64,000 nucleotides of DNA from Veillonellales bacterium. Lineage in GTDB: Bacteria; Bacillota; Negativicutes; JAAYSF01. The position numbers and the translations under genes are program-made. The DNA lies in assembly GCA_039680175.1 (NCBI GenBank), contig JBDKTO010000074.1, positions 124,001 through 188,000 of the forward strand, read 5' to 3'. The notes beneath the pieces are model-generated. The model worked only from the letters and a program-made list of their open reading frames with translations. It made no database searches and was not told the origin of the DNA. Below are positions 1 through 21,515 of the stretch, piece after piece (within the stretch, counting starts at the first letter, position 1; every line of letters begins with the position of its first letter).

Positions 1-2
1 AA

Positions 3-4565: not shown

Positions 4566-4592
4566 CAGTGATTGAAAATTAATATGGTTGCT

Positions 4593-4627: not shown

Positions 4628-4746
4628 AACATTAAATTTGAAATGGGGGTTAGCGTGGAAAACAATAAAACAGGTAGTAACAATAAAAATTGATCTGAAA
4701 TTTATAGCAACAGCGGTAGCAACGAAGACAAAATGGAGGGTAAGAG

Positions 4747-5175: not shown

Positions 5176-5263
5176 TGAAATCTTGCGTATGCGTGTCATT
5201 GCTATTTGTATGAAAAGAATATGACAGGGAAATATTTTTGAATTTTACAGGAGGATTTTTGCA

Positions 5264-5728
5264 ATGAGTGAAAAAGAACAAGAAAATTCTGTGGCCGAAG
5301 AAAAAGTTCAGGCATTCCAAAAACATCTGACAGAAAATGAAATTAGTGGCTTTGATTTTAGGGATTTAGACAATGACATGCATGCCTATGTATTTCGCAG
5401 CAATCTTCCCATTCAGGGACAGAATCTTCCTTTTATGGTTCTTTTGGATGACAGCGTGTATACAATCATTCAGGTGCAGACAGCATCGAACATTGTGACA
5501 GCTGAGAAAAAACAGGAAATATGCTGTTATCTCAATGATTTGAATGAACGGTATCGTATGTTGAAATACCATGTGGATTCGACCGGCAGTCTTTTTCTTA
5601 CCTGCTGCATTCCCGCCGGAACGCCTGACTTTGAACCAGCCTTAATCATTGCGATCTTAAATCAGATTCAAGGTCATTTGAATGATGTGTATCCGGAAAT
5701 CATGGGGAAAATATGGAATAGAGGATAA
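5264..5728 (+). CDS. YbjN-like (type III secretion chaperone-like) small protein
   Basis: 154 residues, no signal peptide, so cytoplasmic. The start follows an AGGAGG site at about 5249. The sequence alternates beta strands around LPFMVLLDDSVYTIIQVQ with a C-terminal helix ending in YPEIMGKIW. It is clearly related to the protein at 15892 (shared pattern of an F-R-(S/T)-NL strand, a (L/V)-DDS(V/L)Y-TIQV core, LN-ER/VNERNR, and a YP-IM..IW tail). This length and layout fit the YbjN / type III secretion chaperone-like fold, which binds client polypeptides; that assignment is inference from pattern. Both copies lie near an autotransporter and a Skp-like gene, suggesting a role in handling surface proteins before export. 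Confidence 0.6.
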   Translation: MSEKEQENSVAEEKVQAFQKHLTENEISGFDFRDLDNDMHAYVFRSNLPIQGQNLPFMVLLDDSVYTIIQVQTASNIVTAEKKQEICCYLNDLNERYRMLKYHVDSTGSLFLTCCIPAGTPDFEPALIIAILNQIQGHLNDVYPEIMGKIWNRG

Positions 5729-5832
5729 TTCTAAGCCCCCGGCTACGCAGCAGGAGACATACACCGGCGAGAGTTGCAGAAAAAATGGGTAAAGACGCAG
5801 GCTAAAGCAAGAATGTCGCCTGTGCGAGCCAT

Positions 5833-5870
5833 AAAAACGGCTGATTGTTCTTATGCAATCAGCCGTTTTT
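5833..5870 (+). terminator. Bidirectional intrinsic terminator
   Basis: A perfect 15-bp stem (5833-5847 with 5856-5870) around an 8-nt loop, with A5 on the 5' side and T5 on the 3' side. It closes the autotransporter-chaperone-YbjN group and would work in both directions. Confidence 0.9.
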
Positions 5871-6035
5871 ATGGAATCGGGCTATAGCTTGTTTTAGCAG
5901 GCAGTTTAATTCCTTATATTGGGCGTTATGGTGAATAGAGAGTCTGCCCCAGGGCGGGATATGTTTGCCTGGAATAGAGGCGTTCTCATTGATACTCTGT
6001 GCAAATTTTTCAATCGATCAAGAAAAGCCGGTGCG

Positions 6036-6114
6036 AGATTGCTTCGTCGTACCTCCTCGCAACGACAAATCACCCGTTTTGTCATCGCGAGGAGCGACAG
6101 CGACGCGGCGATCT
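6036..6114. repeat. REP-like interspersed palindrome
   Basis: Two arms (6036-6066 and 6081-6114) are imperfect reverse complements built around CTCCTCGCAACGAC and GTCATCGCGAGGAGCG, ending in the AGATT.../...GATCT boundaries. This resembles a widespread family of interspersed bacterial palindromes with arms beginning GTCATTGCGAGGAGC. Only one copy was seen in the window. It is non-coding; whether it is still mobile cannot be told. Confidence 0.7.
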
Positions 6115-6257
6115 GTGGCTCCATATGGAGGTGCTATTGTTCAATTTGCGTCATAAAAATGCTGCAAATGGCAAGAAAGGAAATATTTCACAACATCCCT
6201 CATGTGAGGGATGTACAAAATAACTTTATTGGAATATTATTATAAGTAAAGCTATTT

Positions 6258-6286
6258 TTGTTAATTTTTCTACAAAAAGGTCGATA
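6258..6286 (+). promoter_or_regulatory. Candidate promoter of riboswitch 1
   Basis: TTGTTA (6258-6263), 17 nt, TCGATA (6281-6286). The sequence just after it (GTGAAAAATTTCATAT) recurs after the promoters of riboswitches 5 and 6, supporting this placement although the hexamers are weak. Confidence 0.45.
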
Positions 6287-6310
6287 AAAAGTGAAAAATT
6301 TCATATAGTG

Positions 6311-6502
6311 ATGCAGGTGCCCTTTGGGGCTTAATAGGGAAGCCGGTTGAAGACCGGCGCGGTCCCGCCACTGTAATGACGAGCGATCCTCAGAATGATG
6401 CCACTGGAACGAAAGTTTTGGGAAGGCCGGGGAAAGCGATGAATCAAAGCCAGGAGAACTGCCTGCAGGACAATCGCCGCTTGACCTACGAACGATGGGG
6501 AG
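6311..6502 (+). promoter_or_regulatory. Cobalamin riboswitch 1
   Basis: Shows the full conserved core: GCAGGTGCC opening, GGGAAGCCGG, CGGTCCCGCCACTGTAA, and the B12 box AGCCAGGAGAACTGCCTG at 6448-6465, closed by a GACCT...GGGG segment. A terminator follows at 6554, so corrinoid binding probably stops transcription before the 179-aa gene at 6737. Confidence 0.95.
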
Positions 6503-6553
6503 GAGATTACGAAACTGCAAATAGGATTATTCCTTATAGGCAGATTGAGTATG

Positions 6554-6585
6554 CGCTCCCGGACCACCGGGAGCGTTTTGTCTTT
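6554..6585 (+). terminator. Riboswitch 1 expression-platform terminator
   Basis: A 9-bp GC-rich stem (6554-6562 with 6567-6575), 4-nt loop, then TTTTGTCTTT. Its place between riboswitch 1 and the downstream gene is that of a ligand-controlled terminator. Confidence 0.85.
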
Positions 6586-6736
6586 CCCGGCGGGATTTCC
6601 CTATGACCCCATCGTGACAGACAGCCGGAGGAGTTGAAGCCTTTTTTCCCGGCAATATGCGGGTTTATACCGGCAGCTTAAAAAAATCTGCCAGAAGGCC
6701 GGTGAACAATTTTAGAAAACGGAGGAGCGGTCGGTA

Positions 6737-7276
6737 ATGAGGCTAATGATAAATAAAAAAACAAAGCTTGGTTTCGTGGTTCTTGGCATGATTATTTGTT
6801 TAGCGGCTGCGGTTAGCGGCAGTCATTACAGCAGCCGGCCCGGCAAAGCGTTTACTTCCGAAAAAAGCGCTCTGATTTACCTGCAGTCTCAATGGGAAGC
6901 TTTAATCAAATCAACCGAGACAGCCTGGGATACGAGCTGGAATGCCTCTATCCGATCTAAGCCTTCCAATAAAGTAGTACGGCAGAAGCTGCAGCTGAGT
7001 TTGTCCGATTTGCGAAAAGCAGAAAAAGAATTGCGGCTCCTTTTTGAAAATCATTATTCCGAATTTTCTCCGGCTAAGCAAGCAGTATTAAAGCAGATTC
7101 TTGCCAATTCTTTAGCTGCCGTGCAGAAGAGAGAAGCGGCAATAGAAACAGTCCTAACGATTCAGGATGACAGCCGCTATCTTTTTGACATTATGAAGAA
7201 TATGCCGGATATCAGTTTGCAAGCCGATAATTATCTTAAAGCTGCGTCAGAACAATGGGAGCTGCTGGAAAACTGA
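6737..7276 (+). CDS. Unknown membrane-anchored or secreted protein under B12 control
   Basis: 179 residues, not recognised. A basic start is followed by one hydrophobic segment (about residues 11-29), a signal peptide or membrane anchor. The rest is mostly helical, with LSDLRKAEKELR-type charged repeats, and should lie outside the inner membrane. An upstream GGAGGAG site supports the start. It is the only gene between riboswitch 1 and riboswitch 2, so it should be made when corrinoid is scarce. A part in corrinoid capture is plausible but only from context. Confidence 0.75.
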   Translation: MRLMINKKTKLGFVVLGMIICLAAAVSGSHYSSRPGKAFTSEKSALIYLQSQWEALIKSTETAWDTSWNASIRSKPSNKVVRQKLQLSLSDLRKAEKELRLLFENHYSEFSPAKQAVLKQILANSLAAVQKREAAIETVLTIQDDSRYLFDIMKNMPDISLQADNYLKAASEQWELLEN

Positions 7277-7289
7277 AGACAATGAGATG

Positions 7290-7315
7290 TGAAGCATGAT
7301 TTGCGTCCCCTTGCT
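7290..7315. repeat. Intergenic repeat, copy 1
   Basis: A 26-nt segment containing TTTGCGTCCCCTTGCT that recurs almost exactly near 18477-18504, again just behind a gene of this B12-linked region. Function unknown. Confidence 0.55.
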
Positions 7316-7432
7316 TTTAGAAGAAAATAGATAAAAGTGTCGAAAAAAGCAGAAGGAAAATGGTCGACATTATTAACCAATTATGCTAAAATTAACTAAA
7401 CAAAGGAAATAAATGAAAAATAAATAGAATTT

Positions 7433-7632
7433 TGGTACAGGTGCCCGCAAGGGCCTAACAGAGAAGCCGGTGTAATTCCGGCACGGTCCCGCCACTGTAA
7501 GGGGGAGCAAAGCCATGATATGCCACTGGGAGCAAAGATTCCCGGGAAGGTTTGGCAAGAGCGATGATCCGGAGCCAGGAGAACTGCCTGTATGACAATC
7601 ACCGTTGACCTGCGAGCGATAGGGAGGGGGAT
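7433..7632 (+). promoter_or_regulatory. Cobalamin riboswitch 2 (first of three in series)
   Basis: Conserved blocks: ACAGGTGCCC, GAGAAGCCGGTG, CGGTCCCGCCACTGTAA, B12 box AGCCAGGAGAACTGCCTG at 7573-7590, then GACCTGCGAG...GGGAGG. A terminator follows at once and no gene comes before the next riboswitch. Confidence 0.95.
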
Positions 7633-7677
7633 TTCGATGCAGTTATTGCATTTTATCCGGCGGATTTACCGGATTAC

Positions 7678-7724
7678 AAGAAGCCTCTCTGGATTATCAT
7701 CACAGGGAGGTTTCTTTTGTTTTA
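7678..7724 (+). terminator. Riboswitch 2 terminator
   Basis: A 14-bp stem with two G-T pairs (7678-7691 with 7703-7716), an 11-nt loop, then TTGTTTTA. This is the likely expression platform of riboswitch 2. Confidence 0.8.
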
Positions 7725-7729
7725 TCCGC

Positions 7730-7785
7730 CAGGAAGCTGTCAGGCGGCCTAAGCCCGTGTAAGCTTGATGGCGGGCAGCTTCCTG
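7730..7785 (+). other. Perfect inverted repeat between riboswitches 2 and 3
   Basis: CAGGAAGCTG at 7730-7739 pairs perfectly with CAGCTTCCTG at 7776-7785. It could be an RNA helix insulating neighbouring riboswitches or an operator. A possible -35 (TTGAAA, 7787) follows, but no good -10 was found. Confidence 0.4.
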
Positions 7786-7825
7786 ATTGAAATAGCTGAT
7801 TTTACAAAATTTCATACGAAATCAG

Positions 7826-8060
7826 GTATCCGGCATCAGGCCGGATTTAAAAGGGAAGTCCGGTGTGATTCCGGCGCTGTCTCGCAACTGTGAAGGAGAG
7901 CCATGTTTCTGCCAGCCTCTTACCAAGGAGAAATGCGGCGATGCTCCCAAGTCAGGGTACTGCCTGGTTTCCAGTGTTTCATCCGGCGATACGCCATATT
8001 TCCGCCGGATGAGACACTCACATCCGTACAGCCTGCGATGGACAGGTCTGGGACTAAGAA
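7826..8060 (+). promoter_or_regulatory. Cobalamin riboswitch 3 (variant, second of three in series)
   Basis: Same core in divergent form: GGGAAGTCCGGTGTGATTCC, then GCTGTCTCGCAACTGTGAAG instead of the usual GGTCCCGCCACTGTAA, and a B12 box variant AGTCAGGGTACTGCCTGG at about 7951-7968, with a long peripheral hairpin after it. The GTGTGATTCCGGC / CAACTGTGA wording is typical of classical AdoCbl-type elements, so its ligand preference may differ from its neighbours. No gene lies between it and riboswitch 4. Confidence 0.88.
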
Positions 8061-8190
8061 CACTTGCAGGCAGAGGATAGCTTTGTGTTATAACATGGCT
8101 GCAGGTTTGTTAGGTGAAAAAATTCACCTAACAGCCAGAGTGGTTCTTGACCCGGCATTGGCAGCAGGCGGCTTTAGCAAAAAGGTAAAG

Positions 8191-8232
8191 CGTCGATTGT
8201 TCCGCCAGGACGGAATAGTCGGCGTTTTTTTT
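8191..8232 (+). terminator. Riboswitch 3 terminator
   Basis: A 14-bp stem with three G-T wobbles (8191-8204 with 8211-8224), 6-nt loop, then T8: a textbook intrinsic terminator. Confidence 0.9.
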
Positions 8233-8254
8233 ACTCGCGATTAACTGCATAGCG

Positions 8255-8455
8255 TTGGGATAGGTGCCCGAAAGGGCTTAATAGGGAAGCCGGTTGAAGG
8301 CCGGCGCGGTCCCGCCACTGTAACGGGGAGCGAATCCGCAAGGATGTGTCACTGAAGCGTACGCTTTGGGAAGGCGCGGGAGAGCGAAGAACCGGAGCCA
8401 GGAGAACTGCCTGTCTGACAATCACCGTTTGACCTGCGAGGTATGGGGAGGAGAT
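8255..8455 (+). promoter_or_regulatory. Cobalamin riboswitch 4 (third of three in series)
   Basis: Conserved blocks ATAGGTGCCC, GGGAAGCCGGTTG, CGGTCCCGCCACTGTAA and B12 box AGCCAGGAGAACTGCCTG at 8396-8413, ending GACCTGCGAGG..GGGGAGG. It lies closest to the operon that starts with the Skp-like gene at 8695. Confidence 0.95.
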
Positions 8456-8495
8456 TACGCGAAAATCAAGGACGGTTTCCGTCCGGACAGCGTAA

Positions 8496-8520
8496 GCACT
8501 CCCAACAAGGGAGCTTTTTT
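8496..8520 (+). terminator. Riboswitch 4 terminator
   Basis: Short hairpin (CTCCC 8499-8503 with GGGAG 8509-8513, extended by one pair across a bulge) followed by T6. Weak stem but good T-run, correctly placed for riboswitch 4. Confidence 0.7.
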
Positions 8521-8694
8521 AATATATCAGAAAGTAATAAGGATCTTTTCACCAAGTGCTATGAGCCATGAGCCGAAAAGACCGTGCTAGCAGTTTTTCT
8601 TATTCACTCGTTTTATTCCCGGTTTAGCGGCGTACAAGCCGTACTTGTCCATAAGAACGCAAATCAATAACTATGCTGAGAAAGAGGAAATGGA

Positions 8695-9120
8695 ATGAAA
8701 AAAATAACAGGAAGCTTTTCAGTACTGATCGCCGTATTTTTCCTATGGGGTATTCTGACCCCTGCGACGGCCCTGGCCGCCGCTGTCGGCTGTGTCGACC
8801 GGCAGCAGGTCTTCAGCAGCTACCCCGGCATCCAGGCTCTCATGCAGCAGATTCAGAGCCTGCGGGAAGCGGCGCAAAAGGACTACGACGACCGGGGCAA
8901 GGATCTGCCGGAGGCGGAGCGCAAAGCCCTGAACGACACCATCGCCCGGGAGGAAGCCCAGAAGGAAGACGAGCTGATGAACCCGGTGGGTGACAAAATC
9001 GAAGCGTCCATCAAGGCTGTGGCCGGGGAAAAGGGCTTGACCGTAATCATCGACGCAGGAATTGTGGTCTATGGCGGAGCCGGTATCACCGCCGATGTGA
9101 TCGCTAAAGTAAAGCAATAA
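8695..9120 (+). CDS. Skp/OmpH-like periplasmic chaperone
   Basis: 141 residues. Signal peptide over residues 1-29 (Lys start, hydrophobic core, cut near ALAAA). The mature part is the OmpH pattern: VDRQQVF..YP, a charged helical hairpin (about 45-105), and the end motif VVYGGAGITADVI. Expected role: holding outer-membrane proteins unfolded in the periplasm. It is the first gene after the three stacked cobalamin riboswitches and precedes the very large barrel fusion at 10773, which would need such help. It is a paralog of the protein at 4747, but with GC-richer codons. Confidence 0.9.
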   Translation: MKKITGSFSVLIAVFFLWGILTPATALAAAVGCVDRQQVFSSYPGIQALMQQIQSLREAAQKDYDDRGKDLPEAERKALNDTIAREEAQKEDELMNPVGDKIEASIKAVAGEKGLTVIIDAGIVVYGGAGITADVIAKVKQ

Positions 9121-9211
9121 GCGGCGGCGACAGTATAACCTTAGCCTGTTCGTCCTGCCCGGACGCGGTAACGGCGCCCGGACAGGCTGCGATAGGAATT
9201 CTTCCAAGGAG

Positions 9212-9283
9212 GTGAGTTTTTTTCCCATGGACAGTAAGGAAGAGACCTCAGCAGCCGCCAGGCTGTTGATGGTCGCAAGGTAG
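9212..9283 (+). CDS. Possible small ORF (23 or 18 codons)
   Basis: GTG at 9212 or ATG at 9227, both stopping at TAG 9281-9283. The near-perfect Shine-Dalgarno AAGGAGGTGAG at 9206-9216 overlaps the GTG, so the ATG, 11 nt further on, is the likelier start (18 residues beginning MDSKEETSAAARLL). It is too short to recognise. Such a strong ribosome site 100 nt ahead of the next gene suggests a leader peptide, a small protein, or the remnant of a lost gene. Confidence 0.3.
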   Translation: MSFFPMDSKEETSAAARLLMVAR

Positions 9284-9314
9284 GAAAAACAAAAATTAGG
9301 GAGAGGTGTTTAGA

Positions 9315-10700
9315 ATGGCAAGCTCAACAGTAATCGCGACTTTTTACAATTTCGGAGAGACTTCTTTGGACAAAGGGCGGATACGCTTACTTACTTCTGA
9401 TAGTACTAGCAGCCCGGCATATACTCCGGCACCTGGCAGCGGTACGAGTATTGACAATACGGATCTTATTGCTTTTTATTTCAACGGTGGAAATAACTCA
9501 GGCTTACGAGTTCTGGTAGTGGAAAGAGAGTATGACAGCAGTTATAATCAGTTGCCTTGCTACATTTCCGTATACAATCCAAGCTCTTGGACTGCTACAG
9601 TAGCAAGAGATAACAACTATACTTATAGTGGTACCAGCCAAAAAATACTGAATGTGTATGGTATCCTGTCGCCGAGTGGCGGTACTTTTTACGGCACAGA
9701 CTATTCTACCGGCCGAGTTTTCAAGATGACGCACAGCATCAGCGGTTCTACCGAATCGTTGTCTCTTGCCAGCGATTACTATCCATTTGCGGCGACGGAA
9801 GCAGGCGCATCGGTTTATAGTGTAGCTCTCGCGCTGATTGACAGTTATCTTTATGCCATAGCCCAACAGTATACCAAGTCTGGCTCAGGGACTTCGCCGA
9901 GCGATTACACTTATTATGGCAGCATCATTGCCAAACTCAATCCAGCCAGCTTGGGTACGGCGGTTGCCACTACCGATGATGCGGCTCCGAACGCCTTTGA
10001 TATTCAGGTATATGACGGCAATCTTTATGTAACGGCACTGGGCGGTCCGCAGTGGTATGGCGATCCCGATGATCCGTCAACAATCAAATGGAATTACGAA
10101 TCGCGTATTCAAAAGGTCACGACAAGCCTTGTTGTTACCAATCTTGTCCGTCCGGCGGATGACACGGAAACCGGAAAAACCGATGATAAATTCGACATCC
10201 GCTCCCTGGCGATTCTTTCCGACGGAACGGCCTATATTTTGACCGGCTCCTATGACCAAAATTATTCGATGAACGGCCGTTTCTGGAAAACCACGATGGC
10301 AAAAATTAACGGGTTGAGCGATGGTTTGATAACAGATATTACAATTCCGGTTCCTAGACAAGTTGTACCGCCGATATCTTCGGCGTCTGGCTATTTGTGG
10401 GTAGCCTTGCCGGCGGATGATCTCAGCCGGGCTTGGGGGATGCTGGGTGATAATCTCGGGGTTTACGCAACGTCTCTTTCCGGCAGCACAATTGGTGCTG
10501 CTGCGGCCTCAGGTGGCGGATGGACCGCTGGTACTCCTTCCTTTAACGCTATTTCTCTGGCCGAGCCGGCTACAACATTTGCCAAAGAACTCACTGTGCG
10601 CACCTTGCGCGGCTACGTGCATCCGGTTATGGCCTCCGGCGAGGGTATTCCGACAGAAGAAAGAAAGAAATTTATTCAAGCTCATTTTGAAAAGAAATAA
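9315..10700 (+). CDS. Unknown propeller-like protein without signal peptide
   Basis: 461 residues from ATG 9315, chosen over an in-frame GTG at 9306 because GGGAGAGGTG is then well placed. Not recognised. It has no signal peptide or membrane segment. It is rich in Ser, Thr, Tyr and Gly, with repeated strand-like stretches such as GGTFYGTDYSTGRVFKM, SYLYAIAQQY, DGNLYVTALGG and DGTAYILTGSYD, the kind of pattern seen in beta-propellers. The C-terminus changes to a charged helical tail (TEERKKFIQAHFEKK). It lies between the Skp-like gene and the receptor fusion in the B12-controlled operon. Whether it stays in the cytoplasm or leaves by an unusual route is open. Confidence 0.8.
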   Translation: MASSTVIATFYNFGETSLDKGRIRLLTSDSTSSPAYTPAPGSGTSIDNTDLIAFYFNGGNNSGLRVLVVEREYDSSYNQLPCYISVYNPSSWTATVARDNNYTYSGTSQKILNVYGILSPSGGTFYGTDYSTGRVFKMTHSISGSTESLSLASDYYPFAATEAGASVYSVALALIDSYLYAIAQQYTKSGSGTSPSDYTYYGSIIAKLNPASLGTAVATTDDAAPNAFDIQVYDGNLYVTALGGPQWYGDPDDPSTIKWNYESRIQKVTTSLVVTNLVRPADDTETGKTDDKFDIRSLAILSDGTAYILTGSYDQNYSMNGRFWKTTMAKINGLSDGLITDITIPVPRQVVPPISSASGYLWVALPADDLSRAWGMLGDNLGVYATSLSGSTIGAAAASGGGWTAGTPSFNAISLAEPATTFAKELTVRTLRGYVHPVMASGEGIPTEERKKFIQAHFEKK

Positions 10701-10710
10701 TTGACAGAAC

Positions 10711-10747
10711 TTAGAAGAAGGGGCGGTAACTTCGCCCCTTCTTCTAA
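10711..10747 (+). other. Perfect 15-bp intergenic hairpin
   Basis: TTAGAAGAAGGGGCG (10711-10725) pairs perfectly with 10733-10747 across a 7-nt loop, without a T-run. It probably protects or punctuates mRNA between the 9315 gene and the fusion gene, or attenuates downstream expression. Confidence 0.6.
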
Positions 10748-10772
10748 AGTATGCATCTGGGAGGGTGCCTTT

Positions 10773-13700
10773 TTGCAAAGAAAAAAACAGCGTAAAAAAC
10801 CTATAGCGTGGAGCCTTAGAGCCTGTTCACTGGCGCTTTTGCTTACTACTTCGTATACATTGCCGCTGTATGCGTCTCAAACAGTTAATAATGAAAATGT
10901 TGATAGGACCATGGTCGGGAAAGCGGGGGATACCCACACCATATCCGGTACTGTGACAACCTATGCCACAGACACTCAGGATGGTGATTTAGATGCTGTG
11001 AATATGTATGCGGGCGAATATCAATCTGCCATAACCTTGCTCACCGGCAGTGTCTGGCGTCCGCTTGACGCGGCAGATTCAGCGGTTGTGAATGTTTATT
11101 CCTCCTTTCGAATGGAGTCGGGTTCCATGGTTGATCTGGCCTATAAATACAGCGCGGACAATGGCTATGTCGACAATATAGCGGCAGGATATACAACATG
11201 GCCAGTAGGGAGTACTGTGGGATCTGAGAAGGCTCCTTACCGTCAAATGAATATCACAAACGGCAAGTTTGGCGATGATCTTACCTTCCGCATCAATCTG
11301 GGCACACACCTTTCCACGCTTAACCCAGCAGGGACAAAATATGTTTACCGGGGTGGCTGTAGCGATTCCGTTACCCTGAAGAATCCAAGCCATATTGACG
11401 GTGTAACAACTTCGAATATTAAACTGGAATATGTACTGAATAAAAATTTTGCGGCAGGCTACAATTCAAATTTCTCCTGGTCAACTGTCGCCGATACAAC
11501 GCTTAAAGGCGAAGTTGCCAATGTTTTTGGTATTACGAATGCTACCAAGAATCAAAGCCTAATGGACTCATTCCAAGTTACCGGGGAGGCAACCAATCAA
11601 GTTGACGGCGCTCTCAATAAGTATGATATTTCTACGGAACTGGTACAAACAACCAGTACTGCTAAAAGTAAATATTACAGTGTTACTTGGACAGCGCAAA
11701 AATCAAACTCTCTTTCCCAGGGAGCTTACTCTACCGCCAATGCAGCCCTTGCGACCCGCAATTTATGGCGGATTGAGGACGGCCTGTTCTGGAAGCGCGG
11801 CGACGACCGGCGGTTTGCCAACCGCGGCATTGCCAAGGACGATTTCAGTGACCGGGAAGGCGTGTGGACCAATACCTGGCGGGGAAAATACACTTATGAC
11901 GGCGTGCAGAACTCCAGCTTTGGCCAGATGTACAGCGGCATCCAGGTCGGCTATGACAAGCTGCGGGACCGGGAACTGCTGGGCGGCAAGGTCTATACCG
12001 GACTGTTTTTCAGCAAAATGACCGCCGATGCTGATTTCAACGCCCAGAATACCGGCGGCGCTGCCTACAACAGCGGCAAAGGCGATCTGGACAGCACCGG
12101 CCTCGGCGCTTATATGCTCTGGGAAGGCAAAAAAGGACACTATCTGGATGCCATGGTGCGCTGGAGCAAAATCGACAATGGCTATACGTATACCGATTCC
12201 TTCGGCGACAGCTACCGGAAGGATTTTGACGCCAAAACCTACGGCATCGGCGCCCGTTACGGTTTGCGCATTGATAAAGGCAACGGCTGGTTTATGGAAC
12301 CGCAGGTCGGCCTTTCCTACGGCATAATGCGCTCCTTTAATTTCCGTATGGACAACAGTTTAAAGTATTCCCAGGACCAGATGGACATGCTGATCGGCCG
12401 CGCCGGACTGTCCGTCGGCAAGAGCTACGGGCAGGGCGATCACACTGGCGAAGCGTATCTCAAGCTGACCGCCAATCATGACTTCATGGACGGCGGCAAC
12501 GCCATGATGTACGCCATGCAGAACAGTACAAATCCAAGCCTGAATGACGTCGTTCTGGCCTCGCAAAAGGTGGACACCCTGGCCGGCAAGGACACCTGGT
12601 ATGACGTGACGCTGGGCAGCAATTTCAAGCTGGGCGACAGCCGGGACGGCTGGCTGGAAGCCAATAAATCTTTCAGCGGCAAGGTCAACACCGACTGGCA
12701 GATTAACGGCGGTGTCGCCTGGCATTGGGGCGGTCCATCCAAAGTCAAAAAGGCGGCAGCGGTGAATACGGCTGTGCAGAGTCCGCTTGCGGACACCGCG
12801 AAGGAAGGCGCTGCCGTTGACAAAGGTGCAACCCCCAATTTGCCTGAGGGCAATGGTTCAGCGCCGCAGACGAATGCAGCCAACGGTGATAATGGCAATA
12901 TGAACATTGCCGGCGCGGCTGAACCCATATCGCCCGGCGGCACCAATGCCACCGGGACAGCCGGTACGCTGCCGCCGGGCAGTACGGGTGAGTTTACGTT
13001 CGCTCCGGTAGTGGTCGAAGCCGCCCGGCCGGACTGGGAGAAAAAACTCTCGCCGGGAACGGTCTCCGTCATTGAGGTGCCGAAATACGCCGGCGAGCAT
13101 AAGACATTGGCCGATCTGCTGCAAACGGTGCCCGGCGTTTATATCGACCGGATCTCCGGCGGCGGCACCGGCCATTATTCGACGGTGCGGGTGCGCGGCT
13201 CCTCGGCCAGCGAGGTCAATATCTACATGGACGGCGTTTTAGTGAATACCGGCAGCGAGCAGGCGGTCAACCTGGAAAACCTCAATATCGACAATGTGGA
13301 GCGCATCGAAGTCTATCGCGGCTATATCCCGGCCCGGTTTGCCGGGGCGGCCATGGGCGGTGCGATCAACATCGTGACGAAAAAACCGGATAAAACCGGC
13401 GGCAAGGTCAGCTGCGGCCTGCGGTCCTTCGGCGGCCAGAAATACAATTTGGAGACGACCGCTCCGGCCGGCGACGGCAGCCTGCTGCTGGCGGTTAACC
13501 GTGACCAGGCCAAAGGAGATTTTAAATATAATAAAATTGTGGATACGTATGATGTCATAAAATGGGGAATTGTAAATGGAAAGCAAGTTCCAGTAGAAAC
13601 CTATCCGCTGACACGCTGGCGCCAGAACAACGGCTATGAGGATAACAACATCCTGGCCAAATGGCAGGATAAAAACTGGTTTGTGAAGCTGAACTATATC

Positions 13701-15095
13701 AATAATAAGACCCATACGCCGGGCAGCGTGAACGGCTACCTGATCGATGTGCCGGACAGTATGCTGCCGCCAGAGATCACAACTGCTAGTAAAGCGTTGC
13801 GTGCCGGCACGATTGATACGGAGAAAACCGAGCTGTCCTTCGGCCGCCGCCAGCAAAGCGGCAATGTGGAATGGGGTTGGAAGCTGGATGCCATTCACCA
13901 GAATAAAGACGCGTTATATTTGCGGTACGATAACGGCAACAGGGACATTGCCTTTGGAACCAATACCTTCCGCAACAATACCTATAACGCATCCGTTGAC
14001 GGCACCTGGAAGATGGGGGAAAGCCACCTGCTGGAATTCCTGGCCACCGCCAGCAAGGAAACCATGAAGGTGCGCTTTACCGCCGACGATGCCTGGAGCA
14101 CGAACTGGGGCAAGAAATTTGAGCAGTATTTCCTGCCGAAATACAATATGAGCAATTACTACCTCCAGCTCCAGGATACGATGAAACTGGACGATGCCGG
14201 CAGTCTGACCTTTACGCCCCTGGTGCGGGCCCAAAAATCCGATATCGGCATTGACGTGAAAGAAGGCGAAGGCTGGCTGTACAGCTATAACCTGGGCCTG
14301 AAGAAAAAGTGGAATGATCAATGGACCACCTGGGCCACCTATGGTACTTATAACAAACTGCCGAGTTGGTATGAACTGTTTGGCGATGGTGTCAATCTTG
14401 TGTCAAAATGGCATGAATATAACAGCATCGCTGAATGGAGTCCGGAAACGTCTGCGGAGCATGGGAAAAATTGGGATGTATCCGTTAACCGGACCGGAAA
14501 GATGTTCGGATCGGACAGCGATACCACCCTGACGTATTTCCACCGCAACTCGGAAAATCTGATGACGACTATGTTTAACCCCCTATACGGGGCAACCTGG
14601 TATGCGAATTACGGTGCCGGAAAGATTCAGGGGGTCGAGCTTAGCAGCAAAATGCATTGGGAAAAATTTGACTTTACGCTAAGCACGACATGGCAGGATT
14701 CTCTTACTACGAAAGGATATACCGCTTATGCGAATATGAGCATGACCAGCTGGCAGGGGCAGCCCTTCCCCTGGACGCCGGAGTGGACGGTCAACGCTCG
14801 TCTGGATTACCGTTTCCCCGGCAATAAGTTCAGCGTCTTCGGTGAATACAACTGGACGGATGAGCTAAGCTGGTACAATGGTTCGGGTTCAAGGTACTAC
14901 TATGAAGCCATGGGGCTCTTCAATATCGGTATGAAGTATTCATTCAATAAGCAGTATAAACTGATTGCCGGTGTGAATGACATCGCCAACAAGGGGCCGA
15001 AACAATGTGTTGTTTACAGTGACAGCAATAGAAAAAATGTTGCCTATCCGCAGCAGGGCCGTACCTATTATATGACGGTGGAATATACATTCTGA
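10773..15095 (+). CDS. Two-barrel fusion: autotransporter plus TonB-dependent receptor
   Basis: 1440 residues from TTG 10773; GGGAGGGTG lies 6 nt upstream, and starting further up would put a hairpin inside the gene. Order: signal peptide (about 1-37, KKQRKK then a hydrophobic core); passenger (about 38-330); a complete autotransporter barrel (about 335-655, ending GGVAWHWGG); a 90-residue Ala/Gly/Pro/Asn linker; a TonB-box-like stretch (FAPVVVEA, about 745); a plug domain with VRVRGSSASEVNIYMDG and MGGAINIVTKKP; and a roughly 550-residue receptor barrel ending in an aromatic strand (YYMTVEYTF). The frame is continuous. An autotransporter barrel ends in the periplasm, so the linker and TonB box would be correctly placed. 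Cobalamin riboswitch control suggests corrinoid or cobalt capture. I know of no standard family with this architecture. Confidence 0.9.
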   Translation: MQRKKQRKKPIAWSLRACSLALLLTTSYTLPLYASQTVNNENVDRTMVGKAGDTHTISGTVTTYATDTQDGDLDAVNMYAGEYQSAITLLTGSVWRPLDAADSAVVNVYSSFRMESGSMVDLAYKYSADNGYVDNIAAGYTTWPVGSTVGSEKAPYRQMNITNGKFGDDLTFRINLGTHLSTLNPAGTKYVYRGGCSDSVTLKNPSHIDGVTTSNIKLEYVLNKNFAAGYNSNFSWSTVADTTLKGEVANVFGITNATKNQSLMDSFQVTGEATNQVDGALNKYDISTELVQTTSTAKSKYYSVTWTAQKSNSLSQGAYSTANAALATRNLWRIEDGLFWKRGDDRRFANRGIAKDDFSDREGVWTNTWRGKYTYDGVQNSSFGQMYSGIQVGYDKLRDRELLGGKVYTGLFFSKMTADADFNAQNTGGAAYNSGKGDLDSTGLGAYMLWEGKKGHYLDAMVRWSKIDNGYTYTDSFGDSYRKDFDAKTYGIGARYGLRIDKGNGWFMEPQVGLSYGIMRSFNFRMDNSLKYSQDQMDMLIGRAGLSVGKSYGQGDHTGEAYLKLTANHDFMDGGNAMMYAMQNSTNPSLNDVVLASQKVDTLAGKDTWYDVTLGSNFKLGDSRDGWLEANKSFSGKVNTDWQINGGVAWHWGGPSKVKKAAAVNTAVQSPLADTAKEGAAVDKGATPNLPEGNGSAPQTNAANGDNGNMNIAGAAEPISPGGTNATGTAGTLPPGSTGEFTFAPVVVEAARPDWEKKLSPGTVSVIEVPKYAGEHKTLADLLQTVPGVYIDRISGGGTGHYSTVRVRGSSASEVNIYMDGVLVNTGSEQAVNLENLNIDNVERIEVYRGYIPARFAGAAMGGAINIVTKKPDKTGGKVSCGLRSFGGQKYNLETTAPAGDGSLLLAVNRDQAKGDFKYNKIVDTYDVIKWGIVNGKQVPVETYPLTRWRQNNGYEDNNILAKWQDKNWFVKLNYINNKTHTPGSVNGYLIDVPDSMLPPEITTASKALRAGTIDTEKTELSFGRRQQSGNVEWGWKLDAIHQNKDALYLRYDNGNRDIAFGTNTFRNNTYNASVDGTWKMGESHLLEFLATASKETMKVRFTADDAWSTNWGKKFEQYFLPKYNMSNYYLQLQDTMKLDDAGSLTFTPLVRAQKSDIGIDVKEGEGWLYSYNLGLKKKWNDQWTTWATYGTYNKLPSWYELFGDGVNLVSKWHEYNSIAEWSPETSAEHGKNWDVSVNRTGKMFGSDSDTTLTYFHRNSENLMTTMFNPLYGATWYANYGAGKIQGVELSSKMHWEKFDFTLSTTWQDSLTTKGYTAYANMSMTSWQGQPFPWTPEWTVNARLDYRFPGNKFSVFGEYNWTDELSWYNGSGSRYYYEAMGLFNIGMKYSFNKQYKLIAGVNDIANKGPKQCVVYSDSNRKNVAYPQQGRTYYMTVEYTF

Positions 15096-15102
15096 TGATG
15101 GC

Positions 15103-15134
15103 GCCGGGCGGCTGTTGTGTATCCGCCGCCCGGC
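15103..15134 (+). other. Perfect GC hairpin after the fusion gene
   Basis: GCCGGGCGGC (15103-15112) pairs with GCCGCCCGGC (15125-15134), 12-nt loop, no T-run. Likely an mRNA stability or partial termination element inside the operon. Confidence 0.55.
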
Positions 15135-15160
15135 CCAGAATCACTAAGGAGCGACTAAGG

Positions 15161-15754
15161 ATGGATGGGAAACGTAAGTTGTTGATTCTTAAACTGGACC
15201 TTATCGACAGTATGCGGGAAATCGATGCGATCCGGCAAGCAGTTGCGCAGAAAGCCGCTGGTTTGGTAGAAGTGCGTGCTGTCGGCTGCGAAAAACCCGA
15301 GGACATCATAACTGCCGTTGCCGATGACCAGCCGGACTGGGTCCATATCGTCGGCCGCAGCAATGACGAAGCACTGATTTTTTCCGGCGGCAAAAGCGGG
15401 GAAAGTCAGTTTGACCGCATTCGTTTGCTGAAACATTTGCGCCGGGCGGTGCCGGGTCTTGCCTTGCTTACGCTGAACAGCAAGCTGGACAACCGGGATT
15501 TGGGCAATATGGGGCAGCTCCGGACCGTGATCGGCATGCAAGACGGCTACAATCCTTTAGCTTCCCGCCAGTTCATGCCCCGCTTTTACGCCAATATCTG
15601 TCTGGGAATGCCGCTGGCACCGGCCGCAAAAACCGCTATTGAAGGGATGCAGCCGGAAGTGGTTCAGCATGGCGGCATGCCGTCCATGTGCTTCAGCCGC
15701 AGCATTGACCCGGAAACCTTTCTATTTTTGCCAAGAGAAACGGCAGTGAATTAG
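15161..15754 (+). CDS. CHAT-like (caspase-fold) protein with degenerate catalytic sites
   Basis: 197 residues from ATG 15161, chosen for the AAGGAG site 8 nt upstream; an in-frame ATG at 15095 overlaps the fusion stop. No signal peptide. The layout follows single-domain CHAT proteins: KLLILKLDL strand, then WVHIVGRS (61-67) where active members have H-x-x-G-H-G, ALLTLNSK (101-108) where they have L-N-A-C, then VIGMQDG, a helix with FYANICLGMPL, and a short tail. The second His is Arg66 and the Cys position is Lys108, so it should lack protease activity. Perhaps it acts as a sensor or scaffold. The fold assignment is by eye and moderately sure; the degeneracy holds only if it is right. It neighbours a papain-like protease gene. 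Confidence 0.55.
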   Translation: MDGKRKLLILKLDLIDSMREIDAIRQAVAQKAAGLVEVRAVGCEKPEDIITAVADDQPDWVHIVGRSNDEALIFSGGKSGESQFDRIRLLKHLRRAVPGLALLTLNSKLDNRDLGNMGQLRTVIGMQDGYNPLASRQFMPRFYANICLGMPLAPAAKTAIEGMQPEVVQHGGMPSMCFSRSIDPETFLFLPRETAVN

Positions 15755-15787
15755 CAGCGGGCTTGCCGCCTGGCGGCAGGCCATGGG

Positions 15788-15819
15788 ATGACAGGCCCGG
15801 CAACCACCGGGCCTGTCAT
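15788..15819 (+). terminator. Perfect 13-bp hairpin after the CHAT-like gene
   Basis: 15788-15800 pairs with 15807-15819 across a 6-nt loop, followed by ATATTTCT. Weak T-run: partial terminator or RNA-processing hairpin. Confidence 0.6.
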
Positions 15820-15891
15820 ATATTTCTGCCTGCCCGGCAGAGTGATTTACGGTCTAAGCAATATTTTTAACAGAAGAGGAGCAATGACCCG

Positions 15892-16347
15892 ATGGAAAAT
15901 GGCAATATAAAAGCAAACAAGTTTCAGGAATTTTTAACAGCCGGTCGGCTTACCTGCTTTGGCGTACAGGAAATGAACGACGCGGTGCATACCGTACTCT
16001 TTCGCACCAATCTGGAGGTCGGCGGCCAGCAGCTGCCGGTCTTGTTCGTTACCGACGACAGCCTGTATGCGACGATCCAGGTGCGGGTCGTGCCGGCGGC
16101 CGTCCGGGACGGGAACAGCCACAGCGTCCTCACCTTTGTCAATGAACGGAACCGGACCTATAAGAACTTCAAGTATTTTATCGGCGAGGATAATTCCCTG
16201 ATTTTGGATGTCTGTCTGACGGCTGAGCCGGAACAATTCGAACCGCAGCTTGTCAGTCTGACGCTTGACATCATCCTGCGGCACCTGACGGACGAATACC
16301 CGGTGATCATGCGTACAATCTGGGCCGGGGAAATCCCGCAGAGCTGA
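15892..16347 (+). CDS. YbjN-like (type III secretion chaperone-like) small protein
   Basis: 151 residues, no signal peptide. The AGAGGAGC site about 9 nt upstream supports ATG 15892. It is a paralog of the protein at 5264, sharing VLFRTNLEVGGQQLPVLFV..DSLYATIQVR, the VNERNRTYKNFKY segment and the YPVIMRTIW tail. It ends 18 nt before the papain-like gene, so the two are probably co-translated. By fold analogy it may bind a partner polypeptide, with the protease or the surface proteins as candidates; this is inference. Confidence 0.6.
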   Translation: MENGNIKANKFQEFLTAGRLTCFGVQEMNDAVHTVLFRTNLEVGGQQLPVLFVTDDSLYATIQVRVVPAAVRDGNSHSVLTFVNERNRTYKNFKYFIGEDNSLILDVCLTAEPEQFEPQLVSLTLDIILRHLTDEYPVIMRTIWAGEIPQS

Positions 16348-16365
16348 AAAAATGGAGGTATTGCG

Positions 16366-17262
16366 ATGAAGCAGCATGTCATTCTTTCCGACAACAGAAA
16401 GGTAGGGACCGGCTGGCGGCCGCCCCTGCCGGATTTGCGCGACTATAACGAGTGTCATCCCAAGCTGCAGGAAGCCATAAAGAAGCTGGGGATCGATCCG
16501 GATGCCCCTTTGCCGGCCAAGACCGACCTGCGCCAGTGGTGCTCCCCCGTTCAGGACTAGGGGCAGCTGGGCGCCTGTACCGCCCACGCGGCGGCGGGCA
16601 TTGTCGAATATTTCGAGAATCGCTCCTTTTCCCGGACTGTGACCGCCTCGCGGCTGTTCATCTACAAGAATGCCCGCAGCCTGGAGGGCGCGGCCGGCGA
16701 CAGCGGCACGTACATCCGGGATACCATGGGGGCGCTGGCCCTCTGCGGCGTGCCGCCGGAAAAATACTGGCCCTATACCGACAAAGACCCGGATTTTGAT
16801 AAGGAACCGACCGCCTTCGTCTATGCCATCGCCGACAATTATGAGGCGCTGCAGTATTTCCGCCATGACGCCGCCAGCGTCAATCCAACGCCGGCCGATG
16901 TGCTGGCGAGCGTGAAAAAGTATCTGGCTGCCGGTGTGCCGTCCATGTTCGGCTTTTACGGCTTCAACTCCATGGACGCATCCGATGTTCCCGGCGGCAT
17001 TCCCGCCCCCGGCCCGGACGAGCAAGCCAGCTGGGGCCACGCCGTGGCCGCTTTCGGCTATGACGACGCACTCAAGATCAAAAATACCCAGTATAACCGG
17101 GAAACCACCGGCGCCCTCCTTATCCGCAACTCCTGGGGCAGCGATTGGGGCGACCATGGGTACGGCTGGCTGCCCTATGAATACGTTCTGAACAAGCTGG
17201 CCACGGATTTCTGGTCGCTTTTAAACATGGACTGGGTCGCCGCCGACCAGTTCGGCGTGTAG
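16366..17262 (+). pseudogene. Papain-family (C1A) protease frame cut by an in-frame TAG
   Basis: ATG 16366 after GGAGG. The frame reads 64 codons, meets TAG at 16558-16560, then continues cleanly to the normal stop at 17262. The TAG occupies codon 65 in the context PVQD-stop-GQLGACTAHA; papain-like enzymes have the oxyanion-hole Gln here, six residues before the catalytic Cys (codon 71). One C-to-T change would turn CAG into TAG. Downstream the catalytic His (WGHAVAAFGYD, codon 225) and Asn (IRNSWGSDWG, codon 255) are intact, so decay, if any, is recent. No signal peptide or usual propeptide is seen. Options: a fresh nonsense mutation, a sequencing error, or readthrough. Restart at GTG 16639 would lose the Cys. 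TAG also ends this gene and the 15161 gene, so general recoding is unlikely. Confidence 0.85.
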
Positions 17263-17282
17263 AGAACCGAGGAGGGATAAGC

Positions 17283-18410
17283 ATGAGTTTGATCGACTGG
17301 TTTACCAATTTGTTTGTGAAGGAATCGAAGCACTATGTCTTTGCGCCGGCTGCATCCGACGTGGAAAAGATTGAGTTTCAGGAAGGGCAGCACTACTTCC
17401 GCCTGCGGCTGGCGGAAATGTTCTTAAAAGACGATCGTAAATTATTCCGCAGCTATGTTCCCGTTGTTTCTTCGGTCGCAGCGCTGCAATTCGGCTCTAA
17501 TGATGCCCAGCAATTGCCCGGCTTGGCCGGTCCGCTGGCGCTGAATTTGAATGAAAGCTCCCTGGGACATGGCGTGGAGCTGAATTACGCCCTGACCAAT
17601 CTGGTGCCCTATCGCGGCGGCAATGTGTCCATCAGCGCCGCCTTACTGGCCTATGTCAATAAAGACTATTTGCAGTCATTCCTAAGTCTCGCCAGCAGCA
17701 TTTCCAGCCTGCTGACCATCGGCCAGCTGTCAACCACCCTTAAGGTGGTTGACAGCACGGTAAACGGCATTCAGGACCTGCTGGACGGCGGGGACAAAGA
17801 CATCCGCCTGGTGTTTCACAATGAATATTCCGGTACGGACAGCCTGGGCGGCGTGTCCCTCACAAGCGGCTATTTTGCCGTCGTTGGCGCTGATGCCGGC
17901 AAATTTCAGCCGGAAAAACTGTTCGTCAAAAACTCGCAGCTTTGTTTCGGCGACGAGCAGTCATCGGCCAAGCCGCTCACCGGCTACGACTATATGCTGT
18001 TCAGCGTGGAAGCGGCGCTGTACCGGGACGACTTCCGCTATTTCACCGAATACAACAGTTTGCTTTATACCGCCATTGAAAAGGGCATGACGAATAAAAG
18101 CGAAGGCGACGCCGTTATCCAGGCGGCTATGCTGGCCGTATTCAAATCGGCTGATCTGACCTATGTCGATAAAACCCGGGTAGCGGCCGCGCTGAAACAA
18201 GAGTATGAAGAACGGCTCGCCGTCCTGCAGGACAAGGGGATCAAAGCCGCGGCCGGCATGACAAGCGAGTGGCTGAACGACCGGGCGCTGGCGATTGATC
18301 CGGAAGGGGTATGGCGGCAGATTTCGCCGCTTTTGGCTGAAAACGAGCCGGATGACGCGGCCATCGCCGGCAGGATTCTCGGCATGATCGGGAATGGTGA
18401 AATAGTCTGA
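17283..18410 (+). CDS. Unknown 375-aa protein
   Basis: Not recognised. GAGGAGGG lies 8 nt ahead of ATG 17283, 20 nt after the protease frame. No signal peptide. A beta-rich N-terminal half (HYFRLRLAEMFL, YVPVVSSVAALQF, and LVPYRGGNVSISAALLAYV, the most striking segment) leads to a hydrophobic helical stretch at about 130-165 (SFLSLASSISSLLTIGQL), then strands (DIRLVFHNEY, GYFAVVGAD) and a helical C-terminal half. Tight coupling to the papain-like frame suggests a partner, inhibitor or substrate of the protease. Confidence 0.8.
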   Translation: MSLIDWFTNLFVKESKHYVFAPAASDVEKIEFQEGQHYFRLRLAEMFLKDDRKLFRSYVPVVSSVAALQFGSNDAQQLPGLAGPLALNLNESSLGHGVELNYALTNLVPYRGGNVSISAALLAYVNKDYLQSFLSLASSISSLLTIGQLSTTLKVVDSTVNGIQDLLDGGDKDIRLVFHNEYSGTDSLGGVSLTSGYFAVVGADAGKFQPEKLFVKNSQLCFGDEQSSAKPLTGYDYMLFSVEAALYRDDFRYFTEYNSLLYTAIEKGMTNKSEGDAVIQAAMLAVFKSADLTYVDKTRVAAALKQEYEERLAVLQDKGIKAAAGMTSEWLNDRALAIDPEGVWRQISPLLAENEPDDAAIAGRILGMIGNGEIV

Positions 18411-18476
18411 TTCATGCACCGGCTATGCGACGGAGTCTGATGATGCTTCGCCAGAAGAGCAGTGAAAATGAAATGC

Positions 18477-18519
18477 GAAGCATTATTTGCGTCCCCTTGC
18501 TCCTGCGTCCCCTTGCTCC
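18477..18519. repeat. Intergenic repeat, copy 2, with 16-bp tandem duplication
   Basis: The 7290-7315 sequence recurs, and TGCGTCCCCTTGCTCC is present twice head to tail (18488-18503 and 18504-18519). It is non-coding, between the 17283 gene and the next receptor gene. Confidence 0.6.
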
Positions 18520-18632
18520 TACAAAATAGAAAACGACAGAGGGGTAGAGAAGTATCGCATAGGATGAGAAAGTGACGACAAATGCATAAAGAGGTACAAG
18601 GATTATATAAAAAATTATTAAAGGGGCTTAGG

Positions 18633-21515
18633 ATGAATAAAAAACGGTATTTAGAGAAGAAAATAGCTATTGCGCTGCTTTTGGGGCTAACCTGCGTAGG
18701 CTCAAATGCCTATGCGGAAGAAGACGGCACTCAGAATACGGCTGAACCAAAATATACACTGGAAGCAATAACGGTCGAGGCGAAACGGCCGGACTGGGAG
18801 AGCAAGCTGTCGCCCGGTACGGTGACGATTATCAGGCCTGACGATTATCAAGGCGAACAGAAAACATTGCCGGAACTCCTAAAGCAGGTACCGGGCGTGC
18901 ACGTGCGCGAGCTTAACGGCAAAGGCCAGTATACCACCGTCAGCGTGCGCGGTTCCACGGCAGCGCAGGTAGGCGTATTTGTAGACGGAGTGCTGTTCAA
19001 CCTTGGCGGGGATGCTGCGGCGGATATTTCCACGATTCCGGTCCAGAATGTCGAGCGCATCGAAGTGTACCGCGGTTATATTCCGGCGCGGTTCGGCGGT
19101 ACCTTCATGGGCGGCGTGATTAATATCGTGACGAAGAGGCCGACGAAAGAGAATGTGCAGGCCAGCATCGGCCAAAGTTCCTTCGGCGGTTATAAGGGAA
19201 GTCTGCAGGTGGATGCTCCCTTGGGAAAAGGCAGCCTGATGGTGGGCGTCAATCACGAACAAAGTGACGGAGATTTCAAATACAAGAACTTTTCATATGA
19301 TATTGATAAAAACTATCAACAATACATGATGACAGCTGCAAGCTATCAACAAAACACGATAAGTGAATACAATTCCGCTATGAAAAAGCTGGGTATTTAT
19401 GATGAAAATGGTAATGTGCAAAAGTTGAAGCCAATTATATCTTCAGGAACAACAGCGGCAGATTATAAAAAGAACTATGAAGACAATTTTACGCTCCTGA
19501 AGACGGCTTGGGATAAGTATGATTCAAAAATAGAAGCTATATTGGCAGACAATGATGCTTTATTGTTAAAAGGCATCCAAAATAATAAATATTTTACAAA
19601 TTATGATAATATAAATGCTCTTTATGATACTTCAGCAGTGAATCAGGCAAAGATGTATCAAAGTCTTGTTTCAGGGAATAAATTTAGAGTTAGTCTGTAT
19701 ACACTTAATCAGGCTGGCTACACGGTAACCGATTATAGCAGCTACATCAATGCCTATAACAGCTACAAGCAGACCAATTTTACCAGTATACAGGATATAC
19801 TTGGCAATGATTGGAAAGACGGTACGCATGGAGCTGCTTTTAAGGATTTTCTGGAACGCTGGAAAGGCGACTCAGGGTTACGGCAAATAGAACAGCTTAA
19901 GGAAACCTATGAATTTGCCAAAAAATATTACGGTATGGCCGGCGAGGCATCAACGTCTGAACGTTGGCGTAAAGCGAATGACTATAAGAATACGGATGCC
20001 ATTATCAAATGGCAGGATGACCATTGGCTGGCCAAGGCTACCTGGAAACAAATAGAGAGGCATCTGCCATATCCTTACAACAACAATTATGGTGATTTGC
20101 CTAGTGTAGATACGAACGCTGAATTTAATGATATTTTAGATATTTATTATCACCGCAATCAAAAACTGACAGCCAAAGAAGCGTTGCTGGGAAGGCGCGA
20201 TACGGCAGGCAACCTGGAATGGGGCTGGAGCGTAAACTATCTGGACCAGAATAAAGACTATTATGTAGACAACTGGCAGTGGATAGACCAGAATGCAGGT
20301 GCTGTTCTCAATACCTACGCAGCCAACAGTCTGTGGAGCAAATTCGACAGCCGCCGTTTAGGCGTCAAGTTCGACGGCAGCTATAAGGCCGGCGACAAAC
20401 ATTTAATAGAGTTCTTACTAGACGGGTCCAAAGAAAAAATGGATATCGACGGCTGGCGCATGTTTGACTATAAAAATTCCAGCCAAGATACCAGAAAAAG
20501 ATGGCGCAACTACTATGAACAAAAAATTTTTAATGCCCAAGTGCAGGATACCATCACTCTGAATGAAAAGAAAGACTTTTGGCTGACGCCGAGCGTCCGC
20601 TACAACAGGTCAACTATCTTGGGGCGCAGCGACAGGTATGATGCGGCAAACGATCCCCAGAAGGTAAAATGGTTCCATAAAGAAGACGTGCAAACAAATG
20701 ATAAAGCGACATGGCAAATGGCTTTGAAAAAGAAGGTGAGTGACAACCTGACTATCAGGGCAACGGGCGGCACCTATTACAGACTGCTGAACATGTACGA
20801 AATCGCCGGTGACGGCGCGGGCATCTGGCCGATGCCGAATGTTGGCGGTACGGACAGCGTATTTCCATTGCCGGAAGAAGGGAGCCAGTGGGATTTGAGC
20901 GCCATTTGGGATGGCAAGGCTTTGGGGGCTGACAGCGCAAAATTCCAGCTGACCTATTTCGGACGGGATTCCGACCATCTGCTGCAATTGATGAGCCGGC
21001 ATTTCTTCTTCTTCTACACGAATGCGGCCAAGGCAAAAGTCAACGGCCTAGAAATGCAGGCGGATATGTCCTGGCAGAAATGGGACCTTAACCTGCAGGC
21101 AACCTATACGAAGCCCAGTCATGTAAGCTACGACATGACTTGTCTGCCAGGTTATGACAAAAATACGACTTCCGGTTATCTGACGTATATACCGGAGTGG
21201 GAAGGCACAGTGCGCGTAACTTACCGTCCGAATACAAGCTGGAGCCTATTTACGCAGCTGCGTTATGTAGCCGATATGTACACTGACCCGATACCGCTTA
21301 CTACAGGAGCAACTGAAAACCAGTCTTCCTTAACGGTTTGGGATCTGGGGGTCAAACACAAAATAGATAAATCATTCCAATTGTCAATGGGCGTCAACGA
21401 TATATTTAACAAAGCAATTGACATGTATAAGAAAACTTATGAAGGCGAAGCGGTCAATATCCAGTACCCGATCCAAGGCCGTACTTACTATGCTACTTTG
21501 CAGTATAAATTCTGA
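18633..21515 (+). CDS. TonB-dependent receptor with large extracellular-loop insertion
   Basis: 960 residues from ATG 18633; the in-frame ATG 18582 has a poor ribosome site and would spoil the signal peptide. Signal peptide about 1-30, TonB-box-like YTLEAITVEA, plug with VSVRGSTAAQVGVFVDG and MGGVINIVTKRP, barrel ending YYATLQYKF. It shares the unusual RPDWE(S/K)KLSPGTV motif and YRGYIPARF with the receptor half of the fusion at 10773, so both belong to one subfamily. Residues about 221-450 (nt 19293-19980) form an AT-rich, Tyr/Asn/Lys-rich, mostly helical insert where the fusion has only about 30 residues; it should project from the cell surface. Ligand unknown; corrinoid is a guess from context. 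Confidence 0.9.
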   Translation: MNKKRYLEKKIAIALLLGLTCVGSNAYAEEDGTQNTAEPKYTLEAITVEAKRPDWESKLSPGTVTIIRPDDYQGEQKTLPELLKQVPGVHVRELNGKGQYTTVSVRGSTAAQVGVFVDGVLFNLGGDAAADISTIPVQNVERIEVYRGYIPARFGGTFMGGVINIVTKRPTKENVQASIGQSSFGGYKGSLQVDAPLGKGSLMVGVNHEQSDGDFKYKNFSYDIDKNYQQYMMTAASYQQNTISEYNSAMKKLGIYDENGNVQKLKPIISSGTTAADYKKNYEDNFTLLKTAWDKYDSKIEAILADNDALLLKGIQNNKYFTNYDNINALYDTSAVNQAKMYQSLVSGNKFRVSLYTLNQAGYTVTDYSSYINAYNSYKQTNFTSIQDILGNDWKDGTHGAAFKDFLERWKGDSGLRQIEQLKETYEFAKKYYGMAGEASTSERWRKANDYKNTDAIIKWQDDHWLAKATWKQIERHLPYPYNNNYGDLPSVDTNAEFNDILDIYYHRNQKLTAKEALLGRRDTAGNLEWGWSVNYLDQNKDYYVDNWQWIDQNAGAVLNTYAANSLWSKFDSRRLGVKFDGSYKAGDKHLIEFLLDGSKEKMDIDGWRMFDYKNSSQDTRKRWRNYYEQKIFNAQVQDTITLNEKKDFWLTPSVRYNRSTILGRSDRYDAANDPQKVKWFHKEDVQTNDKATWQMALKKKVSDNLTIRATGGTYYRLLNMYEIAGDGAGIWPMPNVGGTDSVFPLPEEGSQWDLSAIWDGKALGADSAKFQLTYFGRDSDHLLQLMSRHFFFFYTNAAKAKVNGLEMQADMSWQKWDLNLQATYTKPSHVSYDMTCLPGYDKNTTSGYLTYIPEWEGTVRVTYRPNTSWSLFTQLRYVADMYTDPIPLTTGATENQSSLTVWDLGVKHKIDKSFQLSMGVNDIFNKAIDMYKKTYEGEAVNIQYPIQGRTYYATLQYKF

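Follow-up and report, generated by a model that had tools for sequence, protein, structure and literature searches.

An interrupted papain-like protease gene

The window, a 64,000-nucleotide stretch of the draft genome of a Veillonellales bacterium (G000, 4.08 Mb), contains a single-copy gene for a papain-like protease that is interrupted by one in-frame TAG (Table 1). The motif at the stop reads D-(stop)-G-Q-L-G-A-C, and the TAG lies six codons ahead of Cys71. An earlier note on this DNA had placed the TAG at 16558, on the Gln of a D-Q-G-Q-x-G-x-C motif six codons before the catalytic Cys, and frame reading and alignment confirm this placement. The note had also described the remaining 233 codons as intact, with Cys, His and Asn in place. 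This description holds: these codons match Peptidase_C1 (E-value 8.7e-8; 32.9 bits, cut-off 20.7), and the triad of Cys71, His225 and Asn255 is complete, leaving the codon for the oxyanion-hole Gln as the one that reads TAG. Neither the protease nor its neighbors matched NCBIfam. Past the terminal TAG, the next in-frame stop is a TAA at 17278-17280, with five codons between the two.

Table 1. Features at the protease locus (positions in the window)
Feature	Position	Strand	Remarks
Upstream neighbor, 151 aa	15892-16347	+	Weak YbjN-like match, below curated cut-off
Papain-like protease frame	16366-17262	+	298 codons before final TAG; one internal stop
Codons 1-64 of the frame	16366-16557	+	64-aa product if UAG terminates
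In-frame TAG, codon 65	16558-16560	+	Invariant Gln of the family (papain Gln19 position)
Codons 66-298, rest of Peptidase_C1 domain	16561-17259	+	Intact; Pfam PF00112 match
Catalytic Cys71 codon	16576-16578	+	Frame translation and motif
Catalytic His225 codon (GHAV)	17038-17040	+	Role from family knowledge
Catalytic Asn255 codon (RNSWG)	17128-17130	+	Role from family knowledge
Terminal stop of the protease gene, also TAG	17260-17262	+	Frame reading
Conserved neighbor, 375 aa, no family match	17283-18410	+	Beside protease in several relatives, 61-79% identity

The nearest solved chain to the closest relative (L002) is PDB 3ois (E-value 4.8e-35; labeled 'Cysteine protease' in the search), which we take to be xylellain. 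When L002 is aligned with solved structures, its Gln falls on that of the D-Q-G in 3ois and of the N-Q-G in ficin, which is the position of papain Gln19. In papain, Gln19 contributes an oxyanion-hole side chain (PMC4764322). Translation restart downstream of the TAG was considered and rejected. The next long frame begins at 16639, beyond Cys71, so active enzyme could not arise from a restart.

The 375-aa downstream neighbor was found at 11 of 113 loci searched, many of which are too short to hold it. In nine relatives it is 63-79% identical, with many invariant residues. It has no match in Pfam, NCBIfam or PADLOC, and its predicted structure (mean pLDDT 44) gives no usable fold model. Farther upstream, a 219-aa protein (15095-15754) has a sub-threshold, partial match to a CHAT peptidase domain (E-value 0.084). 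It is preceded by a 1464-aa frame (10701-15095) in which an autotransporter beta-domain (residues 388-652) is fused to a TonB-dependent receptor, with the Plug at 784-888 and the barrel at 1031-1426. Related segments (67-76%) sit next to the protease in L003, L021 and L216. Window positions 1-20000 and the segment just upstream in the contig (L181) deviate in composition from the rest of the genome (r = 0.934-0.940; GC content, 0.52-0.53); this region is possibly acquired DNA.

Conservation of the Gln codon and of the frame

Relatives of the protease are spread over many phyla, and 80 loci were kept of 88 relatives found. Some loci from separate searches appear to belong to the same genomes, so the counts that follow are not independent. 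Among 97 aligned family loci, 93 have Gln at the codon-65 column (67 CAG, 26 CAA), and TAG occurs only in the gene described here. The other non-Gln rows are gaps in two fragments (L013 and L095) and a misread R in an end fragment (L096); Gln is therefore present in all 93 relatives that are readable at this position. A motif search found the site in 16 of 17 further loci from the class, all with CAG or CAA, and the seventeenth (L220) has CAG when inspected by eye. A sample of 398 genomes from the phylum added three distant protease copies, none with an internal stop. A motif search for the Gln site found nothing in two relatives from viral contigs (L239 and L240, 46%). Since Gln occupies the site elsewhere, and TAG is one base from CAG, the commoner Gln codon, a single CAG-to-TAG change suffices, as the earlier note had proposed.

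Near-invariant columns were defined as those at least 97% identical in 82 of the 97 loci, a set that excludes this gene, fragments and distant rows. There are 72 such columns. The protease keeps 71 of them and departs only at the TAG, so the frame cannot be one that is open by chance. Between the part after the TAG and the nearest relative, dN is 0.091 and dS is 1.39, and the protease has 13 private residues, against counts of 15 and 16 for the two relatives closest to it. A pseudogene test revealed no further lesion in the 298 codons and no relaxed constraint. Together, the conserved columns, the substitution rates and the private residues argue that there is no decay apart from the stop. The position of the TAG within the gene is not remarkable in itself: a single base change could turn any of 53 sense codons into TAG, and 15 of these codons fall in near-invariant columns. 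Judged from the sequence, the absence of decay is consistent with a recent origin of the stop, or with an earlier one that readthrough might have made tolerable. An equally intact frame would be expected if the gene had died very recently without readthrough, or if the base were an error.

A pyrrolysine system in the same genome

Pyrrolysine (Pyl) is the 22nd amino acid and is read at UAG by decoding machinery that is rare. The search for pyl genes or an amber suppressor tRNA that the earlier note had suggested was positive, because the genome has a complete pyl cluster with a tRNA-Pyl whose anticodon is CTA (CUA in RNA). PylSc, PylSn, PylB, PylC and PylD all score above their NCBIfam cut-offs (PylSc, 375 bits against 178). 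The genes are arranged in the order mtmB, pylT, a methylcobamide-methyltransferase-like gene, pylSc, pylB, pylC, pylD and pylSn, and two corrinoid proteins adjoin the cluster. The mtmB gene (748.6 bits) has exactly one in-frame TAG. The single MTTB-family match in the genome lacks an internal stop, and no dimethylamine methyltransferase was found there. With the complete system present, UAG65 has a decoder, and readthrough is possible.

The pyl cluster is on a different contig from the protease, which has no positional or operon link to methylamine genes. Contamination is an unlikely source of the pyl contig, because its tetranucleotide composition matches that of the genome (r = 0.973-0.979, versus 0.70-0.91 for other species), and this origin was rejected. 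Another amber suppressor tRNA was also sought and rejected: only tRNA-Pyl reads CTA, and 58 of 59 tRNA places found with Rfam lie in stretches with an anticodon named by ARAGORN, the weakest place (C4:23614, 29.5 bits) being the one without an ARAGORN call. The Rfam search missed tRNA-Pyl itself, so odd tRNAs elsewhere could escape detection. Beside the pyl cluster (L129, 18724-19950, minus strand) is a truncated-looking corrinoid activase frame that ends in TAG and runs in-frame into transposase-like sequence, the transposase label having been assigned by eye.

TAG as a stop codon

TAG terminates 124 of 555 long ORFs in a sample covering 22% of the genome. Within the pyl cluster, it is the stop codon of pylB, pylSn and the methyltransferase-like gene. 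With RF1 also present, UAG is a working stop in this organism, and its broad reassignment was rejected in view of the terminal TAGs in the sample. In bacteria generally, pyl is regulated rather than the codon being avoided, and UAG is still a stop (PMC3941956).

PylS was found in 21 of 380 genomes of the class and is absent from the two that carry the nearest protease relatives (G011 and G028). Eight genomes of the class carry PylS as well as the protease. All seven others have a Gln codon at the site and none has TAG. Given this distribution, the ordinary use of TAG as a stop and the presence of RF1, the codon-65 TAG is not a conserved Pyl site. Folding of the RNA 3' of this TAG revealed no unusual structure (z = -0.21); a structured element after the TAG is not required in all Pyl genes. 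GGG directly follows both internal TAGs, in the protease and in mtmB, and follows only 4 of the 124 terminating TAGs. Little weight is given to this similarity, because in each gene GGG specifies a Gly that the protein needs.

A scan of coding likeness for interrupted genes gave 22 TAGs flanked on either side by coding-like sequence. Inspected by eye, all of these except the TAG at 16558 are gene junctions or shadow frames. The sensitivity of the scan is limited, as it missed the known TAG of mtmB. Another pair of frames split by a stop (9306-10700 and 10701-15095) is separated by TAA, not TAG, and the frame at 132-4565 ends in TGA.

Origin and probable fate of codon 65

We consider it probable that an ordinary xylellain-like protease has undergone a recent, lineage-specific change of Gln to UAG, and that the codon is mostly terminated and partly read as Pyl when the pyl genes are on. 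The substitution would have turned an invariant oxyanion-hole Gln codon into UAG in a host with a full pyl system. UAG65 would then be ambiguous, with RF1 presumably releasing most chains after residue 64. Expression of the pyl operon, expected during growth on methylamines by analogy with Acetohalobium, may let tRNA-Pyl decode a fraction of UAG65, yielding a full-length protein in which Pyl would replace Gln19. These expectations are drawn by analogy with two hosts. When an amber codon was introduced in Methanosarcina acetivorans, most of the product was terminated, and 20-30% of the enzyme was full-length and Pyl-bearing (PMC2933860). In Acetohalobium arabaticum, amber suppression occurs only when trimethylamine (TMA) induces pyl (PMC11467909). 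Pyl is far bulkier than Gln, so the Pyl-bearing protein would probably have weak protease activity or none. The UAG is more plausibly an incidental codon that the cell tolerates than a selected regulatory device.

That the gene has simply died by a fresh nonsense mutation, with Pyl readthrough negligible or its product inactive, is unlikely but deserves consideration. TAG is a common, real stop in this genome, and the residue that it replaces is catalytic. The protease is also dispensable, as a copy persists in just 29 of the 380 genomes searched in the class, including this one. Broken copies in other genomes fit such a loss: a 49-aa remnant persists in G025, frames are broken in the Sporomusa acidovorans copy (L087) and in G311 (C49), and L089, L092 and L095 have partial frames. 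On the other side are the UAG decoder encoded by the same genome and the 298 codons free of a second lesion. Alternatively, the true codon might be Gln and the TAG an error of sequencing or assembly, which we regard as quite improbable. The draft assembly comprises 121 contigs with 4.33% contamination listed, and an error would leave the remainder of the gene intact, as observed; however, the protease lies on a long contig (306,621 bases), and inspection by eye of 892,621 sampled bases revealed no in-gene nonsense codon elsewhere except in mtmB, so such consensus errors are not frequent.

Selection might instead have favored recoding, with Pyl at codon 65, or dependence on methylamines, switching the protease on. 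The complete pyl system, the intact codon and gene, the GGG that is shared with mtmB and rare after terminating TAGs, and the tolerance of papain to changes at Gln19, variants of which retain some activity (PMC4764322), are all compatible with this idea. Yet we find it very improbable. TAG is absent from the seven other Pyl-encoding relatives, GGG simply encodes a Gly that each family requires, no special RNA fold follows the TAG, Pyl is much larger than Gln, and the protease and the methylamine genes lie apart. The slimmest chance is given to a natural pyrrolysine protease, in which methylamine-fed cells would read UAG65 as Pyl, the amide or imine of its side chain would serve the oxyanion hole, and activity would track the carbon source. 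Among the readings offered by the earlier note, a fresh nonsense change is the best supported, by the Gln found elsewhere and the lack of other lesions, and the pyl cluster makes readthrough possible. Its suggestion that controlled readthrough produces active protease fares poorly against the seven relatives without TAG, the ordinary use of TAG as a stop, the unremarkable RNA fold and the replacement of the oxyanion-hole Gln.

Relation to known systems

As an incidental amber codon, the codon-65 TAG is, by analogy, most likely comparable to the neutral cases reported for Thermincola potens (PMC3639795). Like the candidates in that organism and the Methanosarcina tRNA-His guanylyltransferase, it is a UAG found in a single species with pylTSBCD, whose relatives have a sense codon. 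In contrast to these neutral codons, the UAG of the protease replaces an invariant Gln of the catalytic site, which makes a harmless replacement less likely. The Pyl methyltransferases encoded by mtmB, mtbB and mttB also have an in-frame TAG, as does mtmB of this genome, but theirs is conserved across species and functional, whereas that of the protease is unique. A Methanosarcina enzyme with a neutral amber codon is reportedly the subject of Heinemann 2009.

The protease resembles xylellain-type bacterial C1A peptidases (PDB 3ois; PMC10380794) in belonging to the papain family and having Cys, His and Asn, and differs in the stop at the Gln19 position. The pyl cluster resembles those of Sporomusa, also of the class Negativicutes, in its pylTScBCDSn order and nearby methylamine methyltransferase (PMC3772150, PMC5609420), and differs in the methylcobamide methyltransferase-like gene between pylT and pylSc. 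Among the papers listed on pyrrolysine together with protease or UAG, none describes a naturally Pyl-containing peptidase in its title or abstract opening.

Incidental Pyl codons are already known from other hosts, and the UAG of the protease is most likely another case. Automatic annotation would probably label the gene a pseudogene and overlook the pyl cluster on another contig. A new in-frame UAG in a bacterium that uses TAG as a stop and has tRNA-Pyl offers a clean natural test of whether suppression rescues a gene or the gene is lost. If Pyl is inserted at this catalytic position, the protease would illustrate the way in which an enzyme can be changed by incidental recoding.
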